NCBI GenBank assembly: GCA_012521345.1
Contig: JAAYMN010000021.1
Span: 1 to 40,680, forward strand
DNA length: 40,680 nucleotides
DNA from: Bacillota bacterium
Lineage (GTDB): Bacteria; Bacillota; Dethiobacteria; Dethiobacterales; Dethiobacteraceae
Reading direction: 5' to 3'
Part shown: piece after piece, positions 5,393 through 18,003 of the stretch
Position numbering within the stretch: the first letter of the stretch is position 1
Layout of the letters: each line of letters opens with the position of its first letter
Notes under the pieces: generated by a model
Told to the model about the DNA's origin: nothing
The model's database searches: none
Seen by the model: only the letters and a program-made list of their open reading frames with translations
Made by a program: the position numbers and the translations under genes

Positions 5393-6946
5393 TTAAATCG
5401 GATTTCTCTTGATTTCTTCCAGTTCCTCTTCAAAATCGGAACCGAGATAGTATTTTTCAGGCTTCAATTCTTCACCGCGCTGCTTGGCCTCCCAGGCAGC
5501 CTTGACCTTGTCGGGCGTTGCCGGCAGCTCGTAGATGCGGACGCCGCAGGCATTGTTGATGGCGTTGATGACAGCCATATGGCCGGAGCATTGGAAGCAC
5601 TCGGAGCAGCCGCAGGAGCCGTGCGGTCCGTTCTTGCGCGGATTGTCTTCCACCAGGATGACGTTGAAATCATCGGGAATGTCGAGAATGGTGGGAATGC
5701 CGCAGCCGGCCATGTTGCCGTGTTTCTTCTGCGCTTCATATTCCTCGGTGAGAGCGAAGCCGATGCTGTGGGACAGGCCGCCGTAACCCTGGCCTTCTAC
5801 GGCAAGGCGGTTGCCGACAGTACCTACGTCAGCGATAGTGGTGTATCTCAACACCTGGGTCTTGCCGGTGTTGACATCCACTTCCACCAGCGCCACGTTT
5901 ACACAATACATATAGGTCGGGTTCTTTTCGCCTTCGCCGGTGTTGGGATCCAGCCCGGGCGGCAGGCCTATGTTGAACTGGTCATAATGGCCGACATACT
6001 TGGTGGGGATGCCTTCTGCGACCATTTCCTCATAAGTACGGTAGGTGCCGTCCGGCTTGCGCATGGCGGCAATCAGCTTATTGGCGGCGTCAATGGTGGC
6101 GTTGCCCGCCATGTAGTGGGAGCGGCTGGCGGCGGCAAGGCCGGTATCGGGGCAGGTCTTGCTGTCGTTCATCACCAGCTTAATTTGTTCCGGCTTGACT
6201 CCCAGCGGTTCCAGGGCTTTTACGGCATGAGTCAGGGCGCCGATATCGCCGCCTTGTCCCATGTCTTCCCAGGTGCTGTAATGGGTGAATGTTCCGTCGG
6301 GATTCAGCTCAAGGGCAACCTCGGCCCAGTCAAACATGCCGATGGTTATAATGAATCCGCCCATGCTGATGCCCACACCCACATGCCTGCCTTGAGCCTT
6401 GGCAGCTTCCGCCTCTGCCTTGTACTGGTCATAGACGGGTTTGATTTTCTCCAGCAGGGCGGGATAGACATAGTCATGGTAGGGACGGCTGTTGATCGCC
6501 AGATCGCCGGGCCGGGCCGCATTGATATAACGGAACTCCCACGGGTCAATGCCCGCTTTTTCCGCCAGCATATCAATCAGTGCTTCCGTGGTGGTGTAGA
6601 TCTGCGGAGCACCGAAGCCACGGTAGGCAATGTTGAAGGCATGGTTGGTGGCACCGCCGCGGGCAAGCGCCCTGATCTTGGGAATGTTGTAGCCGTGGAA
6701 ACCGACGGAAACCAGGTTGTTGAAGATCTTGGAAGCTACAACGCCATAGGCGCCGTGGTCCAAAGCCACATCATACTCGGCGGCAATGATCTTACCGTTT
6801 TCATCGCAGGCAATTCGGCCGTTGGCAAAGGTGGCCGACCGCTTGCCGCTTATATGGTTGAATTCCTCATAGCTCAAGGTGAGGGTAACGGGCATGTTCA
6901 GGTTCTGGACGGCAGTAACTGCCAGCGCATAAGTCTGCGCACCGAC
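5393..6946 (-). pseudogene. Aldehyde oxidoreductase (MOP-type molybdoenzyme), C-terminal part after an in-frame TAA
   Basis: This is the molybdenum half of the enzyme begun at 8227, in the same reading frame but behind a TAA at 6947-6949. It holds the large Mo-pterin-binding domains of the xanthine oxidase family. The segment starting VGAQTYALAV continues directly from the GGSFGY motif before the stop, where Desulfovibrio gigas MOP has GGTFGYK. The catalytic Glu aligned with D. gigas Glu869 is codon 876 of the joined frame. It lies in an unusual Cys-rich loop, CGCSECFQC. No ribosome site precedes the first ATG (6895), so separate translation is unlikely. Apart from the stop the frame is intact for 518 codons, which suggests a recent nonsense change, readthrough or a sequencing error. 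Confidence 0.8.
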
Positions 6947-8227
6947 TTAATAGCCGAAGGAGCCGCCCACGGTGTTCAGGATCATGCGGATGTTTTCCTT
7001 GGGAATGCCGCAGGCGTTGGAAACGGCCTCGATGCCCTCTGTTATGGCCTGTGATTTGCAGAGGATGGTCATCATGCCGTCTTCGCCGATATAAGCCTGG
7101 ACGACATCCGGTTCAAGGGGCAGGTGGGGCTCATGCTGCGAATGGAAGCTGCCTTCCACCACATATGCCGCATTGTCGAAGTCTTCATCGCTGACTTCGC
7201 CCTTGAAAAGGGGCTGCTTCAAATAATAGTTGGGCAGGTTTTCATGGAGCTGGATGGCATTCGGCATAACTGCTTCGGGGAAGGTCATGTATGCCGGCAA
7301 TATTTCAAGATGCTGCTTGACTTTCTTGGCCGCCTCGCGGGCATGCTCTTCCGTATCGGCAGCAACCAGGGCGACCACATCGCCGCGGCGGTTGATTTTC
7401 TTGCCGGCGATAACCGGGAATTCGGTAATGCCGCTGCCCATCCGGCGTGGGGTAACGGCCGGCGCATCAAGGTTGTTGGTACCCTTAACGTCCTTGGCGG
7501 TCATTACTTTATAAACGCCAGGCATTTTCTCCGCTTCTGACACGTCAATCTCGATAATCCTGGCGTGAGGTACTTCAGAAATAACCACCGCCAGGTGCGC
7601 CACGCCTTCGGGCAGTTTGTGCTTGACATCATCGCCGTAGTCGGCAAGACCGCACACCTTGGCCAGGGCGCTCGGCCGCGGGTAGCGGGAACCGTAAATG
7701 CCCTTTTCTTCCTCAAACTTATAGGTAATGTCTTCCATGGTTGCTTCACCGCGCATTACTTTGGCGGCGGCCATTACGGCATCGACAATAGGCTTGTACC
7801 CGGTGCAGCGGCAGATATTCCTGTGCTTGGCAAACCACTCGCGCACTTCCTCGCGGGTGGGGTTCGGGTTTTCAGACAGTAGCCCGTATGCAGAAATAAT
7901 AAAGCCCGGAGAACAGAAGCCGCACTGGACAGCACCGTATGTAATCCAAGCCTGCTGCAGGGGATGCAGGTGCTGAGGCGTGCCAATGCCCTCAATGGTG
8001 AGGACCTTGCTGTATTCCGGGACATCCTTCATTCTTTTCGTGCAGGAGCGGACTACTTTGCCGTCAAGCAGGACAGAGCAGGCCCCGCAGACACCGGTAC
8101 CGCAGCCGACCTTGACGCCCGTCAGGCCCATCCTGCGCAGGACTTTTGCCAGCGAGTCCTTTTCCGGGTTGTAAACGACAGCCCTGTCAACGCCGTTGAT
8201 GTTTAAAACCTTCCTGTCCAGTCTCAA
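6947..8227 (-). CDS. Aldehyde oxidoreductase (MOP-type), N-terminal iron-sulfur part, ends at in-frame TAA
   Basis: The first 426 residues of a xanthine-oxidase-family aldehyde oxidoreductase like D. gigas MOP, which oxidises aldehydes to acids with a Mo-pterin cytosine dinucleotide cofactor. Residues 1-75 are a plant-ferredoxin-type [2Fe-2S] domain with Cys42, 47, 50 and 62. Residues 80-155 carry the second [2Fe-2S] site (Cys102, 105, 139, 141). Residues from about 180 start the Mo domains (YPRPSALAKV...). The TTG start at 8225-8227 follows AAGGGTGG. A good promoter lies 59 bases upstream, so the gene has its own transcript. The full joined frame would be about 944 codons, close to the family (907 in D. 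gigas). As written the product stops just after GGSFGY and would lack most of the Mo site. Confidence 0.88.
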   Translation of the reverse strand: MRLDRKVLNINGVDRAVVYNPEKDSLAKVLRRMGLTGVKVGCGTGVCGACSVLLDGKVVRSCTKRMKDVPEYSKVLTIEGIGTPQHLHPLQQAWITYGAVQCGFCSPGFIISAYGLLSENPNPTREEVREWFAKHRNICRCTGYKPIVDAVMAAAKVMRGEATMEDITYKFEEEKGIYGSRYPRPSALAKVCGLADYGDDVKHKLPEGVAHLAVVISEVPHARIIEIDVSEAEKMPGVYKVMTAKDVKGTNNLDAPAVTPRRMGSGITEFPVIAGKKINRRGDVVALVAADTEEHAREAAKKVKQHLEILPAYMTFPEAVMPNAIQLHENLPNYYLKQPLFKGEVSDEDFDNAAYVVEGSFHSQHEPHLPLEPDVVQAYIGEDGMMTILCKSQAITEGIEAVSNACGIPKENIRMILNTVGGSFGY

Positions 8228-11053: not shown

Positions 11054-12130
11054 TCAGGAATTGGTCGCGCCCGCGCTCTTTAAAATTTTTTTCATTCCTG
11101 AAGTTGTCTTTACTGTACCGTCAAGCATAACCCAGAGGGCTTCCACACCGGGCAGACTTTCGGCCAAAGCCAGTGCTTCCTCGTAAGGCATCAAAAAGAG
11201 CGCCGTTGAAAGAAAGTCGGCCACTCCCGAATCTTCCGTCACCACTGTCACTGCATGATAGTAGGTGCCGGGCATCAGTGTCTCCGGGTCAATTAAATGG
11301 TGGTATTTTTCCCCGTCAACAACATAATAGCGCTGGTAGTCGCCGCTGCTGACGACAGATGCATCCTCCACATATACGACATCAAGCACGCCTTGGTCGG
11401 AGACAAGAGAACTGCCGGGGTCCTGGATACCGATATTCCAGCGTTTCCTTTTGCCGTCCAGCGGCCTGCCGATGGTCCGGATATTGCCGCCGGCGCTGAT
11501 CACGCCGGATGTCAGGCCTTTTGCCTGTAGTTCCCGGGCCACAAGTTCAGTTGCATAGCCTTTGGCCACCGCCCCCACATCCAGGCTCATTTCCGGGTCG
11601 GCAAGATAAACTGTATTTTGTTCGTCATCAATGATAAGCTGGGAAATATCGGTATGCGCCGCTGCTTTTTCCAGCAATTCCCGGGGTGGGAGCTTGGCGT
11701 TTTCCGGGAAATCTATTCCTTCCGTCCTGTAGTCATGCCAGATTTTAAGCACGGAGCCCATGGCGATATTTGTCTGTTTTACAGTTTGCTGCCACTCCTT
11801 GGCAAAAAGAAGCAAATCAATAATTTCCCGGTCCACTTTCACCGGCTCTTTGCCGGCATTGTCATTAATGGTTTTGATATTGTTAATGCCGTCATAATTG
11901 TTATATATGTCATAAAGCCTGTGCAATTCCAGAAAACGCTGCGAGGCATAGTCAAAATAGCGTTCAAACTCTTCCTCCGACTCCGTGTAAGCCACTATCT
12001 GAATCATGGTGTCGAAGGCATTAAAGAATGTATCCGTGTACTTGTTGTACTTGTTTTTTTGCATGCAGCCGCCTAAAAGCGGCAGGCAGAAGGCAATACA
12101 TAAAAATATTGCTGTTATTTTTCTTCTCAC
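11054..12130 (-). CDS. apbE: FAD:protein FMN transferase, lipoprotein (ApbE family)
   Basis: Transfers FMN from FAD to Ser/Thr of target proteins, typically on the outer face of the membrane in Gram-positive bacteria. The product is 358 residues. Residues 1-22 are a lipoprotein signal with lipobox LLGGC (Cys22), followed by the ApbE domain: SLDVGAVAKGYATE, SAGGNIRTIG, VVSSGDYQRYY and HHLIDPETLMP are recognisable family segments. Start: the GTG at 12128-12130 sits six bases after AAGGTG; the ATG three codons upstream overlaps that site. Its neighbour upstream is a lipoprotein with two repeated domains that could be its substrate. Each gene is followed by its own terminator, so they are probably separate transcripts. 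Confidence 0.92.
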   Translation of the reverse strand: MRRKITAIFLCIAFCLPLLGGCMQKNKYNKYTDTFFNAFDTMIQIVAYTESEEEFERYFDYASQRFLELHRLYDIYNNYDGINNIKTINDNAGKEPVKVDREIIDLLLFAKEWQQTVKQTNIAMGSVLKIWHDYRTEGIDFPENAKLPPRELLEKAAAHTDISQLIIDDEQNTVYLADPEMSLDVGAVAKGYATELVARELQAKGLTSGVISAGGNIRTIGRPLDGKRKRWNIGIQDPGSSLVSDQGVLDVVYVEDASVVSSGDYQRYYVVDGEKYHHLIDPETLMPGTYYHAVTVVTEDSGVADFLSTALFLMPYEEALALAESLPGVEALWVMLDGTVKTTSGMKKILKSAGATNS

Positions 12131-12200
12131 AGGCATCACCTTTTCTATTATAGCAAATACTTATTGTCAATAATATTAGTTATTTCTAGAAAACAGCCCC

Positions 12201-12230
12201 AAAAAGCACTCCCCCGCCATGCGGGGGAGT
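12201..12230 (-). terminator. Rho-independent terminator after the duplicated lipoprotein
   Basis: A perfect 10-bp stem (ACTCCCCCGC / GCGGGGGAGT) with a 3-base loop, followed on the minus strand by GCTTTTT. Confidence 0.88.
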
Positions 12231-12264
12231 CAGCCTTGCTCATTTTGATATATAACCATTATAC

Positions 12265-13404
12265 TTATTTTGCTTTTTGCGAGGCTTCGGCTACAACAGC
12301 CAGGTATTCGCTGACATTAATGGTGACGCTTGATGTCAGTTCCGGCACATCGGGAACTGCGGGATGAGATTCGTCGCGCTCTTTGGTTTTCATGCCGGTG
12401 ATTTCTGATACTGTTTTGCCGACCATCCATTTTTGCAGTTCGGCAATTTGCTCATACCACTCTTTGCCGATGGTGGAAACTTTCTTCATGCCATACTCGT
12501 CGCCTTTTTCCACCTTGGTCTTCAGGGGAGCAGTTTTATCGGAAGTGACTTTACCGTCTTTGTCAAAGTTCACAACTATTTGTGCGGTGTCAATAATGAC
12601 GCCGGCCACTTTGCCGTCCGCAGTAAAAGCAGTGGCGGCGATTGTGGTGTCAACCTGGGCTGCGGGCAGCACTTCCGGGTTGTCTCCTTCGGCAGGAGCA
12701 TAGTCTTTCGATTTGGCAATGGAGATTTCCTGGCCAAGACCCAGCTTGTCAGCATTTTCAACGTCAACCGCGTTGTTCCAGGCTTTTTCTACCGCTGCAA
12801 TGTAATCTTCCACACTGATGGTGACCAGTGAGGTCAGCTCTGGTACGTCGGGAACCGCCGGATGCGATTCGTCGCGTTCTTTCGTTTTTAAAGCCTTGAC
12901 TTCCGCAACAGTTTTGCCGACCATCCATTTTTCCAGTTCATCAATCTGTTCATACCATTCTTTGCCGATAGAGGAGGCCTTCTTCATGCCATACTCTTCG
13001 CCTTTTTCCACCTTTGTCTTCAGGACTTCGTCCCTGTTTGTAACTTTCATCTCAGCATCGAATTTAACTACTGTCTGGGCGTTGTCAATATCAACCTTGA
13101 GAATTTTACCGTCAGCATCAAAAAGCACAGCCGCCATTGCTGTGTCAACCTGGCCGGCAGCCAGCACTTCAGGTTGATCTCCTTCTGCCGGGACATAATC
13201 TTTCGATTTGGCGATAGAGTTGACTATACCAAGCCCCAGCTTCCCTGCAGCTGTAGCAGGCGGTGCAGCATCATTATTGTTGTTCCCGGAATTATTGGCA
13301 TTGCCGGGATTTTTTGTGTCTGTTTTGGTGCCGCCGCAACCAACAAACAACACGGCCGCCAGTGACAGCGCCAAAACTACTGCCAATAATTTTTTACTTT
13401 TCAT
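12265..13404 (-). CDS. Lipoprotein with two tandem near-identical domains, FMN-binding-domain-like
   Basis: 379 residues. Lipoprotein signal with Cys23 (lipobox LFVGC), an Asn/Gly/Pro-rich linker to about residue 54, then two copies of a ~158-residue domain (about 55-212 and 220-378). Each copy begins KLGLG....IAKSKDY.PAEGD.PEV, contains EYGMKK.S.IGKEWYEQ, and ends DVPELTS.VTI.V followed by an Ala-rich helix. The last segment resembles the position of the D..SGAT flavinylation motif of FMN-binding domains (NqrC, PplA). A Ser-x-Val-Thr core is kept (Ser192-Thr195; Ser358-Thr361), but the Gly-Ala is missing. With apbE next door, covalent FMN carriage at the cell surface is a plausible inference, not shown. 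ATG is preceded by AGGAGGGG. Confidence 0.8.
   Translation of the reverse strand: MKSKKLLAVVLALSLAAVLFVGCGGTKTDTKNPGNANNSGNNNNDAAPPATAAGKLGLGIVNSIAKSKDYVPAEGDQPEVLAAGQVDTAMAAVLFDADGKILKVDIDNAQTVVKFDAEMKVTNRDEVLKTKVEKGEEYGMKKASSIGKEWYEQIDELEKWMVGKTVAEVKALKTKERDESHPAVPDVPELTSLVTISVEDYIAAVEKAWNNAVDVENADKLGLGQEISIAKSKDYAPAEGDNPEVLPAAQVDTTIAATAFTADGKVAGVIIDTAQIVVNFDKDGKVTSDKTAPLKTKVEKGDEYGMKKVSTIGKEWYEQIAELQKWMVGKTVSEITGMKTKERDESHPAVPDVPELTSSVTINVSEYLAVVAEASQKAK
12271..13242 (-). repeat. Tandem intragenic duplication (two ~158-codon domains)
   Basis: Copy 1 is about 12769-13242 and copy 2 about 12271-12747. By eye, about two thirds or more of the residues are identical. One 20-residue block (residues 173-192 and 339-358) is identical. 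The two copies differ mostly in the linker and in surface positions. Confidence 0.85.
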
Positions 13405-14925: not shown

Positions 14926-15942
14926 TCAGCAGGCATTAAATGATGAAATTTTATCCGGCGCCACCGGGTTTAGGAGAAAGGCGCGCAACAGCCTGACGGC
15001 GCTGTCCATGTCGTTCAGGTCAACTGTTTCCACAGGCGTGTGCACATTACGGCACGGTACAGAGATTGCGCCGGAAGGTATTCCCTCGCGGGTCAGGTGG
15101 ATGGCACCCGCGTCTGTTCCGCCTCTTGTGAGGACTTCAAACTGATGAGGGATGTTTTCTTTTTCCGCCAGTTCCGTCAAGCGGTTTTTAATGAGCGGGT
15201 GGCAAATGATGGACGTGTCTTTGACCTTTATGGCTACGCCCTTCCCCAGGGCAACGTTGTTGGTGGCGGCCTCCGGCGTATCTCCGACCAGGGTTACGTC
15301 CACTGCCAGGCCGAGATCGGGGTTGAAACGGTAGCCAGAGACTTTTGCGCCGCGCAGGCCCACTTCCTCCTGGGCGGTAAAAACGGCATAGATCTCGTGC
15401 TCCGTAGTCGGCAGTTCACGCAGGGCGGCAATCAGTACAGCACAGCCTGCCCGGTTGTCCATGGCCTTGCCGGTCATGCGTGAGCCCATCAGGGCAGTCT
15501 TGCGGTCGTAAGTGGCGATATCGCCGATTTTCACCAGCTGCTCCGCTTCTTTTTTGCCGGTGGCGCCGATATCAATGTAGAGTTTGTCAAGGGTAAGTTT
15601 TTTGATATCGTCCAGTTTTTCCACACCGATTGTGCCGGTGATGCCGTTGGCAAAGACAACCCGCTGTCCCAACAGGATAAAAGGTGACACTCCGCCCACA
15701 TTGCTGAAACGGAGAAAGCCTTTATCATCAATGTAAGTAACTATCACGCCTATTTCATCCATGTGCGCCGCCACCATGATTTTTGTGCCCGACCCTTTTT
15801 TTACGGCACAAAGATTGCCCATTTTGTCCGTGAAAATGTCATCAACATGGCCCTCAAGCTCCTGCCTGATGACAGCGGCGATCTGTTCCTCCCTGCCTGA
15901 CGGTCCGTAGGTTTCACTCAGCTTTTTCAGCAGTTCTTTCAA
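14926..15942 (-). CDS. M42 family metallo-aminopeptidase, third of three tandem copies
   Basis: Cytoplasmic dinuclear-metal aminopeptidase of the TET/glutamyl-aminopeptidase type, trimming short peptides. 338 residues. All metal-site motifs are present: AAHMDEIG (His60, Asp62), KAMDNRAG (Asp162), AQEEVGLRGA (Glu192, Glu193), AVDVT (Asp215) and HTPVE (His301). The TTG start at 15940-15942 follows GGAGG by eight bases, and the start region lies inside the 3' end of the preceding paralogue, so the genes are translationally coupled. Peptides imported by the opp system further right would be natural substrates (inference). Confidence 0.9.
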   Translation of the reverse strand: MKELLKKLSETYGPSGREEQIAAVIRQELEGHVDDIFTDKMGNLCAVKKGSGTKIMVAAHMDEIGVIVTYIDDKGFLRFSNVGGVSPFILLGQRVVFANGITGTIGVEKLDDIKKLTLDKLYIDIGATGKKEAEQLVKIGDIATYDRKTALMGSRMTGKAMDNRAGCAVLIAALRELPTTEHEIYAVFTAQEEVGLRGAKVSGYRFNPDLGLAVDVTLVGDTPEAATNNVALGKGVAIKVKDTSIICHPLIKNRLTELAEKENIPHQFEVLTRGGTDAGAIHLTREGIPSGAISVPCRNVHTPVETVDLNDMDSAVRLLRAFLLNPVAPDKISSFNAC

Positions 15943-16960
15943 GAGGCAGTCCTCCTTCAGCTATGGCCCAAAGCAATCCTTTGGCCAGCTTTATTGTATG
16001 ATGAAAATCATCCAGATTCAAAACAGACACCGGGGAATGAATGTAACGGCAGGGCAGTGCCAGTACTGCGCTTGGAATACCGTCATGGGCCTGGGAAATG
16101 GCACCTGCATCCGTTCCGGCCGTTGTCAGGCGGCGGAACTGGTATGGGATGCCCAGGCTTTCTGCCGTTCTGACAATAAAGTCCACCATTTTTTGTGCAG
16201 CAATAAAGGAAGAATCCATCAGCGAGATGGCCGGTCCGCCCCCCAGCCTGGTTACAAAGCCTGTGTCCGTGATGCCGGCCACATCGTAAGCCGAGGTTCC
16301 TTCCAGGACGATGCCAACATCGGGATAAACATTATAAGCCGCCACGGTTGCCCCTCGCAGGCCGATTTCTTCCTGCACGGTAAAAACGGCAGTCAGCTCC
16401 AGGTCAAAATCTTCCTTGCAGAGTTCAGCCAGGACAGCGCAACCCGCCCGGTCATCAAACGCTTTCCCCAGCAGGCAGTTTGTTCCCAGTTCCCTTGTCT
16501 GTTGGGAAAAAGCCACATAGTCACCAATGCGCACCAGTTTCTCCGCTTCTTCCCTGCTGCACACACCAATATCTATATACAGGTTGTTAATTTCCAGCGT
16601 TTTTTTCCGCTCGGCAGGCTTCTGCAGGTGAACAGGCTTGGAACCGATCACACCGGGAATATGGTTCGGGCCGACCACAACAGTTTTTGCTACCAGGACA
16701 CGGTCATCAATGCCGCCCACTTTGGCCACCCGCAGCAGGCCGCTTTTTTCATAACCAACCACAATCAGGCCGATTTCATCCATATGGGCTGTCAGCATAA
16801 CGCGCGGCTTTTTGCCTTTGCCTTTTGTTATGTATAGATTGCCCAGGGCATCGGTCCTGATTTGTTCGACATATGGTTCCAGTTCCCGGCGCAGCAGTTC
16901 CCGGACATTGCCTTCATCGCCGGAAACACCGTAAGCTTCTGACAGTTTTTTCAGCAGCAT
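15914..16960 (-). CDS. M42 family metallo-aminopeptidase, second of three tandem copies
   Basis: 348-residue paralogue. TAHMDEIG (His59), KAFDDRAG, VQEEIGLRGA and a C-terminal IHSPV His are all present. At the position where the flanking copies have AVDVT, this one has VLEGT, so a Glu replaces the usual Asp metal ligand. This variant is known in parts of the family and may shift metal or substrate preference. ATG 16958-16960 follows GGAGG by seven bases and overlaps the 3' end of the first copy by 10 bases; its own end overlaps the next by 29. M42 enzymes form 12-subunit tetrahedra, so mixed oligomers among the three are possible. Confidence 0.9.
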   Translation of the reverse strand: MLLKKLSEAYGVSGDEGNVRELLRRELEPYVEQIRTDALGNLYITKGKGKKPRVMLTAHMDEIGLIVVGYEKSGLLRVAKVGGIDDRVLVAKTVVVGPNHIPGVIGSKPVHLQKPAERKKTLEINNLYIDIGVCSREEAEKLVRIGDYVAFSQQTRELGTNCLLGKAFDDRAGCAVLAELCKEDFDLELTAVFTVQEEIGLRGATVAAYNVYPDVGIVLEGTSAYDVAGITDTGFVTRLGGGPAISLMDSSFIAAQKMVDFIVRTAESLGIPYQFRRLTTAGTDAGAISQAHDGIPSAVLALPCRYIHSPVSVLNLDDFHHTIKLAKGLLWAIAEGGLPLERTAEKAE

Positions 16961-18003
16961 GACAAATCCTCCACAAATTTCATCTGCAGGCCGGCAATAA
17001 AATAAGCAAGCAGTCGGCCTGCCATCTTTATATCCTCCGTGTCCAGAAGCTCCACGGATGTATGCATGTAACGCAGGGGCACAGATACCAGCCCTGTAGG
17101 GATTCCCCCACGGCTGATCTGGATGGCGCGGGCATCCGTTCCCGTTGGCCCGGCAGCCACTTCCAGCTGGTAAGGAATTTTGCGATCTTTGGCCACAGCC
17201 ACCAGTTCATTGCCAATTTTGGGGTGGATATTGGGACCAACAGTAATGGCAGGTCCTTTCCCCAGTTTGCAAGTCTCATGCTCCGGCACTCCCGGCATAT
17301 CCCCGTGCGTCACGTCCACGGCAATGCCAAGGTCGGGCACAATGCCGTAGGTTGAGGTGGCGGCGCCGCGGACGCCCACTTCCTCCTGGACGGTGGCCAC
17401 AGCATAAACATCGGCGGTATGATGCAGCCGCGCCAACTCTTCCAGGCAGACGGCCAAAACGGCAACCCCCGCCCTGTCATCCATGGCTTTTCCGGCAAGC
17501 ACTTCCCCTCGCAGTTGGACCAGTTCCCGGCGGATCATTGCCAGGTCGCCGATGGCAACCAGTCTCCTGACCCGTTCCTCCGGCAGAGCAAGATCGATAA
17601 ACAGGTCTTCCATGGAATAAGCTTTATTCCGTTCCTCTTCATCAGTCAGGTGGGGGGGCTTGGCCCCGACCACTGCATTAAGCCTTTCCTTGCCGAATAC
17701 AACGACCTCCTGGCCGACGATGGTCCGCGGGTCTATGCCCCCAACGGAAGTAAAGCGCAAAAAACCGCCCTCTTCTATTTTTGTTACCATCAGTCCAATT
17801 TCATCCATATGTGCTGCCAGCAGCACACGGGGCCGGTTATCTCCGGTGCCTTTCTTGAGAAAGACCACATTTCCCAGCCGGTCCTGCCGGACTTCATCAG
17901 CATAGGCACACAGTTCGGCTTTGATCAATTCTGCGGCGAGTGCTTCGTAGCCGGAAATACCCGGTGCTGCGGTTACAGCCTGCAAAAAGTTCTTTAAATC
18001 CAA
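16951..18003 (-). CDS. M42 family metallo-aminopeptidase, first of three tandem copies
   Basis: 350-residue first gene of the operon. AAHMDEIG, KAMDDRAG, VQEEVGVRGA, AVDVT and MHTSV carry the expected metal and catalytic residues. The TTG start (18001-18003) is preceded by GAGGGGGG. The C-terminus ends FVEDLSCC. The N-terminal wording (PGISGYEALAAELI) is closer to YsdC/FrvX-type members. The gene starts 76 bases after the cimA terminator stem, so the operon has its own, not clearly visible, promoter. Confidence 0.9.
   Translation of the reverse strand: MDLKNFLQAVTAAPGISGYEALAAELIKAELCAYADEVRQDRLGNVVFLKKGTGDNRPRVLLAAHMDEIGLMVTKIEEGGFLRFTSVGGIDPRTIVGQEVVVFGKERLNAVVGAKPPHLTDEEERNKAYSMEDLFIDLALPEERVRRLVAIGDLAMIRRELVQLRGEVLAGKAMDDRAGVAVLAVCLEELARLHHTADVYAVATVQEEVGVRGAATSTYGIVPDLGIAVDVTHGDMPGVPEHETCKLGKGPAITVGPNIHPKIGNELVAVAKDRKIPYQLEVAAGPTGTDARAIQISRGGIPTGLVSVPLRYMHTSVELLDTEDIKMAGRLLAYFIAGLQMKFVEDLSCC

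Follow-up and report, generated by a model that had tools for sequence, protein, structure and literature searches.

Extracellular electron transfer in Listeria is encoded in a FLEET locus, and such loci comprise Ndh2, DmkA/B, EetA/B, FmnA/B and PplA (PMC9888254). PF07456 corresponds to EetB, which in Listeria is the subunit of FAD export that feeds FmnB (PMC9973259), and an Asp-Ser-His catalytic triad has been named for FmnB and Vc_ApbE (PMC12052999). A further flavinylated domain, FMN-bind2, was described by Huang et al. in 2024; the accessible part of that paper gives it a length of about 160 aa, two or four copies forming double-flavinylated units, insertions between b1/b2 and b3/a1, and an Erysipelotrichaceae example (PMC11334425). 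Here we compare with these systems a gene pair in a window of 40,680 nucleotides, the whole stretch of DNA, from an anaerobic member of the Bacillota, that was analysed.

As the original prediction stated, an apbE gene in this window adjoins a gene for a lipoprotein with two near-identical domains (Table 1). The ApbE reaches 227 bits against PF02424, for which the cut-off is 25.6, and it carries a lipobox of its own (LPLLGGC), so it is itself a lipoprotein. The domains of the neighbouring lipoprotein, each of ~160 aa, share 69% identity, and its lipobox cysteine, Cys23, is kept in at least 90% of 72 homologues. Nearly all members of this family, which we call SxVT, have two such domains, while one (L103) has four. 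The intergenic gap from the lipoprotein gene to apbE is 125 bp.

Table 1. Features of the lipoprotein-apbE pair, in window positions
Feature	Position	Strand	Basis
Two-domain lipoprotein (SxVT family), 379 aa	12265-13404	minus	open frame and lipobox LFVGC
Signal peptide, residues 1-22, ahead of lipid-modified Cys23	13339-13404	minus	sequence
Lipoprotein domain 1, residues 52-216	12757-13251	minus	family profile
Lipoprotein domain 2, residues 217-379	12268-12756	minus	likeness to domain 1
E-L-T-S-L-V-T, predicted FMN site Thr195	12820-12840	minus	codons checked; aligned to D-x-x-S-G-A-T of bridging and solved FMN_bind domains
E-L-T-S-S-V-T, predicted FMN site Thr361	12322-12342	minus	codons checked; same alignments as Thr195 site
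ApbE flavin transferase, type-2 subclade, 361 aa	11054-12139	minus	PF02424, E 4e-67
ApbE Ser265, forming the catalytic triad together with His281 and Asp308	11345-11347	minus	69/69 in subclade
ApbE catalytic His281	11297-11299	minus	68/69 in subclade
ApbE triad Asp308	11216-11218	minus	68/69 in subclade
ApbE Leu288, in place of Gly of H-x-x-D-P-x-T-G-x-P	11276-11278	minus	subclade alignment
10-bp terminator-like hairpin in the intergenic gap, perhaps a partial terminator	12208-12230	minus	pattern scan only

The lipoprotein was said to lack a clear FMN-binding signature, and at the level of Pfam and NCBIfam this is true: neither domain matches any family in these scans, and PF04205 finds no match at E up to 1 in the window lipoprotein and several homologues, which places them below its gathering cut-off. 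All Pfam, NCBIfam and PHROGs matches of the lipoprotein (for example FTP 0.009 and glyoxylate carboligase 0.003) are sub-threshold and were dismissed as chance, and a phmmer search of PDB with the single lipoprotein sequence returned only designed tandem repeats and chance matches. The HMM comparison with PF04205 that had been proposed thus yielded no direct Pfam match, but a profile of the family matched 2KZX, a solved FMN_bind-type domain, ahead of all other PDB sequences (E 0.0018). This alignment spans positions 38-158 and sets SSVTI opposite SGATI. Profile-profile comparison by hhalign gave a probability of 97.4% between the SxVT family and 2KZX-type domains, against a maximum of 1.8% among 60 column-shuffled nulls.

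Direct hhalign comparison with 44 canonical FMN_bind domains from related genomes was weak (21% over 26 columns), and the case was therefore rebuilt via bridging families; the weak alignment falls exactly on the motif and scores above all 60 shuffles. Distant relatives recovered with the family profile form two groups. The first, 2KZX-like (L208, L209, L210, L212 and L214), carries TGCT, AGVS or SGVS at the site and includes a protein, L208, that exceeds the PF04205 cut-off and matches 2KZX at 1e-20. The second, bridging group (L017, L021, L029 and L203-L207) has SGAT, TGAT, STAT, ATAT or AKAT at the site and aligns with the SxVT family at 99.4% over 158 columns, with Thr195 and Thr361 opposite the Thr of SGAT. 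Moreover, a PF04205-type FMN_bind domain (site D-V-I-A-G-A-T) is fused to four SxVT domains in L103 and to two in L083. Judged from these sequence comparisons, the lipoprotein domains are divergent relatives of the FMN-binding domain by common descent. We nevertheless kept the SxVT family out of PF04205, because its domains score below the PF04205 cut-off and lack the motif.

Structure models were also obtained with AlphaFold2, which predicts the full lipoprotein with a mean pLDDT of 91.6 (about 98 for both domains) and domain 1 alone with a pLDDT of 96.5. Three strands are followed by helices (b1 53-63, b2 83-95, b3 100-115, a1 131-138), and the site is placed in the loop immediately before the last helix, a secondary-structure order that fits FMN_bind. 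Foldseek, queried with the two-domain model and with that of a single domain, listed no solved FMN_bind structure in its top 50. The top matches were IscU-like; their TM-scores did not exceed 0.45, their rmsd was mostly >5.5 A, and we disregarded them as reflecting a common strand-strand-strand-helix topology. These weak matches, together with the lack of a Pfam or NCBIfam match, are what could be cited for a coincidental resemblance to SGAT in an unrelated lipoprotein. We give that reading practically no credence, as it is refuted in effect by the profile-profile and bridging-family homology, with nulls far weaker, and the co-occurrence with apbE also speaks against it.

The predicted attachment site shows which parts of the usual motif have been kept. 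D-V-P-E-L-T-S-x-V-T-I is present once in each domain, as had been noted; the codons confirm Thr195 and Thr361 within S-x-V-T, and the hhalign alignments place them where the Thr of SGAT stands; the equivalent of the motif Asp, however, is the Glu at -6 and not the Asp at -9. Of 159 homologous domains, 158 have Thr at the site and the remaining one has Ser, and position -6 is always acidic (Glu 93, Asp 66). Position -3 is Ser in 126, Thr in 17, Ala in 15 and Gly in one, position -2 is mainly Ser, Leu or Thr, and position -1 is Val in 154, Cys in four and Ala in one. The motif D-x-x-[S/T]-G-A-[S/T] is accordingly not present as such in these domains, and the claim that Gly-Ala is absent holds almost throughout the family, Gly and Ala being retained in 1/159 domains each. 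The SxVT site is this motif with acid, hydroxyl and spacing retained and Gly-Ala rewritten, and the conservation of the site Thr and of the -6 acid is well beyond chance. Because the usual attachment signature is rewritten, our results suggest that ApbE recognises its substrates less strictly than is commonly said. In another substrate, about 50% flavinylation remains after an Ala-to-Val change in the motif, and an Asp-to-Ala change has a minor effect (reviewed in PMC12052999). We found no in vitro test in the literature of Gly lost to Ser/Leu combined with Ala-to-Val.

The pair of lipoprotein and ApbE is widespread in Firmicutes. The SxVT lipoprotein is present in 17 of the 60 genomes related to that of the window (three of these matches being weak or partial) and, with strong scores, in 41 of 399 evenly sampled genomes of the phylum. 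In the named genome collection it occupies at least 79 loci (among the best 80 of 454 confirmed candidates), with carriers in Alkaliphilus, Paenibacillus, Brevibacillus, Clostridium, Sedimentibacter, Ruminiclostridium and many uncultured Bacillota. When the ApbEs of the 399 genomes were scored against the window ApbE, 45 genomes reached at least 308 bits and all others 200 or less. This type-2 ApbE is found in 39 of the 41 lipoprotein carriers, and in 36 of these 39, which span 17 taxonomic families, its gene lies directly downstream on the same strand (Fisher P 3e-45, with kinship among genomes ignored). The suggested co-occurrence of apbE with this family thus proves to be very strong. In the two carriers without it (G220 and G272), a contig edge lies where the gene would stand. 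apbE also follows directly in 59 of the 79 loci of the named collection (counted by hand, from the best 80 of 454 candidates), and carriers without an adjacent apbE, some at a contig end, have one elsewhere in the genome (13/13 checked). Unusual apbE distances at L077 and L080 were discarded, being artefacts of the way open frames were extended. At one locus (G002:C198; L006, L024), apbE has an SxVT lipoprotein gene on either side, and the contig end truncates one of these two.

The catalytic residues of the type-2 subclade are intact (Table 1), while an otherwise near-invariant position has changed. Position 288 is Leu in 65 of 69 subclade members, whereas it is Gly in all eight other ApbEs aligned and in the aligned PDB ApbEs. 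Leu288 lies only a few residues from the catalytic His281 and may be related to the altered substrate motif.

An alternative is that the domains, though derived from FMN-binding ones, no longer undergo covalent flavinylation, and that the lipoprotein binds flavin or quinone non-covalently or acts as a structural partner while ApbE serves other proteins, RnfG for example. The motif Gly is gone in nearly all of the 159 domains and Ala has given way to Val or Cys in 158, in keeping with this, and other substrates are at hand: PF04205 matches are present in 48/48 carrier genomes tested, above the cut-off in 47, and the window genome, with a single ApbE, includes an Rnf operon (named from sequence) that encodes a canonical RnfG. 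The window ApbE is not exclusive to the lipoprotein, because it is the genome's only ApbE and RnfG is also present; it probably modifies the canonical motif as well. We nonetheless consider a loss of flavinylation unlikely, since a hydroxyl residue and a -6 acid in 159/159 domains are unexpected for a lost site amid varying surroundings, and the dedicated adjacent ApbE in 36/39 genomes would be left without explanation. One carrier (G069) has an ApbE and no PF04205 match above the cut-off, but the argument that the lipoprotein is there the sole possible substrate is weak, because this incomplete MAG alone qualifies.

The genomic setting of a distant subclade, ~42% identical to the window protein, connects the pair with extracellular electron transfer. 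Here the pair adjoins a gene for a dihydroxynaphthoate polyprenyltransferase (DmkA type) in 11 loci, among which an NDH-2-type NADH dehydrogenase is present in 10, a polyprenyl synthase (DmkB type) in nine, a NusG_II protein in eight and PF07456 in seven. We take the NusG_II protein of these clusters to be EetA. The cluster order is ndh2-dmkB-dmkA-NusG_II-PF07456-SxVT-apbE, with the SxVT-apbE pair in the places of PplA and FmnB; gene names were checked with Pfam and NCBIfam on a representative (L128) and extended to the other loci by sequence clustering. One locus (L121) has no dehydrogenase within its short contig, another (L068) has a more scattered arrangement, and two (L121 and L136) carry a canonical FMN_bind lipoprotein further downstream. 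The analogy with PplA drawn in the original prediction is strengthened by these Ndh2/DmkA/DmkB clusters, most of which include EetA/EetB-type genes. Because the pair lies within that gene cluster, the electron donor in this subclade is evidently the Ndh2-demethylmenaquinone branch. In the window the flanking genes encode a LysM-containing amidase and a large Fe-S flavoprotein, and the rest of the FLEET cluster is absent at the locus; a search of the window genome and its relatives for the cluster-type Ndh2 at E 1e-25 gave no match at all.

Such clusters could also arise if ApbE and lipoprotein merely belonged to the same electron-transfer module and had no enzyme-substrate relation, the lipoprotein for example delivering FAD to ApbE or binding a metal, and type-2 ApbE is indeed found without the lipoprotein in six of 45 genomes. 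This seems very improbable to us, given that the lipoprotein shares ancestry with an established class of ApbE substrates and retains the residue that is modified in them, and that SxVT domains are sometimes fused to PF04205 domains.

In ten Ndh2-like genes (L131, L137, L124, L128, L125, L115, L126, L136, L129 and L120; for example L128:976-3033) we noted an aligned D/E-A-[V/A]-[S/T/A]-[S/A/G]-A-T motif. It is a candidate ApbE-like site, usually Gly-less, located where a loop, probably outside, connects C-terminal membrane segments; the motif may be due to chance because the stretch is Ala-rich. We speculate, with slightly less than even confidence, that the ApbE subclade changed its recognition rule along with its substrates, having acquired Leu for the near-invariant active-site Gly and modifying Gly-less [D/E]-x-x-[S/T/A]-x-[A/V]-T sites, including those of SxVT lipoproteins and the D-A-V-[S/T]-[S/A/G]-A-T loop of the NADH dehydrogenase in Ndh2-type clusters. 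If true, the loop would tether a flavin to the enzyme through which electrons enter the extracellular transfer pathway.

Based on our findings, we consider it likely that the gene pair encodes a flavin transferase and its dedicated substrate, a two-flavin electron carrier with a relaxed motif. By analogy with FmnB and PplA, FAD would be exported, after which the ApbE, anchored in the membrane and facing outside, would take FAD and transfer FMN to Thr195 and Thr361 via a phosphoester bond. The enzyme would recognise a relaxed [D/E]-x-x-[S/T/A]-x-[V/A]-T where the usual motif is D-x-x-[S/T]-G-A-[S/T], and its substrate, a surface lipoprotein with two divergent FMN-binding-type domains, would pass electrons to outside acceptors in the manner of PplA. 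The lipoprotein is most likely a two-flavin lipoprotein of extracellular electron transfer, and the suggestion of a divergent electron-transfer flavoprotein is largely supported by homology, equivalence of the motifs, co-occurrence, gene clusters and the intact catalytic residues of ApbE, all read from sequence.

Several related families and neighbouring genes were observed in passing. Another FMN_bind-like lipoprotein family with two or three domains (L209:4495-5775, with apbE at 5882-7024; L214, at G154:C4; L210; L212) has the site D-[D/A]-I-[A/S]-G-V-S, and apbE adjoins it in L209 and at G154:C4. L205:11324-12373 and L206:4027-5076 join a canonical FMN_bind domain (VSGAT) to a bridging domain with ATAT or AKAT and share a contig region with an SxVT-apbE pair. 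In L203:4299-5279, a LysM domain is joined to a bridging domain with D-V-T-T-G-A-T, possibly a cell-wall-bound flavoprotein. The bridging lipoproteins L017/L161:5779-6555 and L021/L162:5900-6679, with SGAT or STAT, have a conserved setting of a two-component system, a MarR-like regulator, an ABC transporter and an aldo/keto reductase (named from sequence starts only). Elsewhere in the window, 14926-18003 (minus) holds three consecutive related aminopeptidase-like genes, the first of which, the sole one scanned, matches Peptidase_M42, and 5393-8227 encodes a molybdenum hydroxylase (aldehyde oxidase/xanthine dehydrogenase type) that is split into two frames at about 6895-6947 and in which Fer2 domains are fused ahead of the large subunit.

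Among described systems, PplA/FmnB of the Listeria locus shares with our pair the combination of a two-site lipoprotein and an ApbE and, in the distant subclade, flanking Ndh2, DmkB, DmkA and mostly EetA/EetB-type genes; the pair differs in domain subtype and motif, and the window locus lacks the remaining cluster. With FMN_bind of PF04205 (solved in 2KZX and 3O6U; RnfG, NqrC, PplA) the SxVT family shares profile homology, a modified Thr (predicted here) just ahead of the last helix and an ApbE neighbour, but it lies below Pfam detection, has S-x-V-T in place of SGAT and measures about 160 aa as against about 120. FMN-bind2 resembles the family in description: size, copy number, the b1/b2 and b3/a1 inserts and an Erysipelotrichaceae member (L134) agree, while its motif is given as [S/T]GA[S/T]-like in the accessible part of the paper and that of SxVT differs. 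Compared by description only, the SxVT family is probably FMN-bind2 or a sister group. The term 'new' substrate used at first must be qualified, because FMN-bind2, which equals the family in size and copy number, dates from 2024 (PMC11334425). As far as the accessible parts of the literature go, there appears to be no description of the rewritten motif, of the dedicated ApbE subclade with its Leu, of the linkage to Ndh2 clusters or of the lack of a Pfam model.

If confirmed, our reading would loosen the accepted ApbE recognition rule and provide a natural enzyme-substrate pair for studies of flavin-tag specificity. Substrates of flavinylation are found by the [S/T]GA[S/T] motif or PF04205; the SxVT family, present in about 10% of the sampled species of the phylum, escapes both, and surveys of flavin-based electron transfer could therefore miss it. 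The DUF2271, DUF3570, Flavodoxin_4 and FMN_red substrates, as presented in the accessible parts of PMC8238504 and PMC11334425, were likewise found outside PF04205 via the apbE neighbourhood; they have other folds and a recognisable [S/T]GA[S/T]-like motif, whereas the SxVT family has kept no more of it than acid, hydroxyl residues and spacing.
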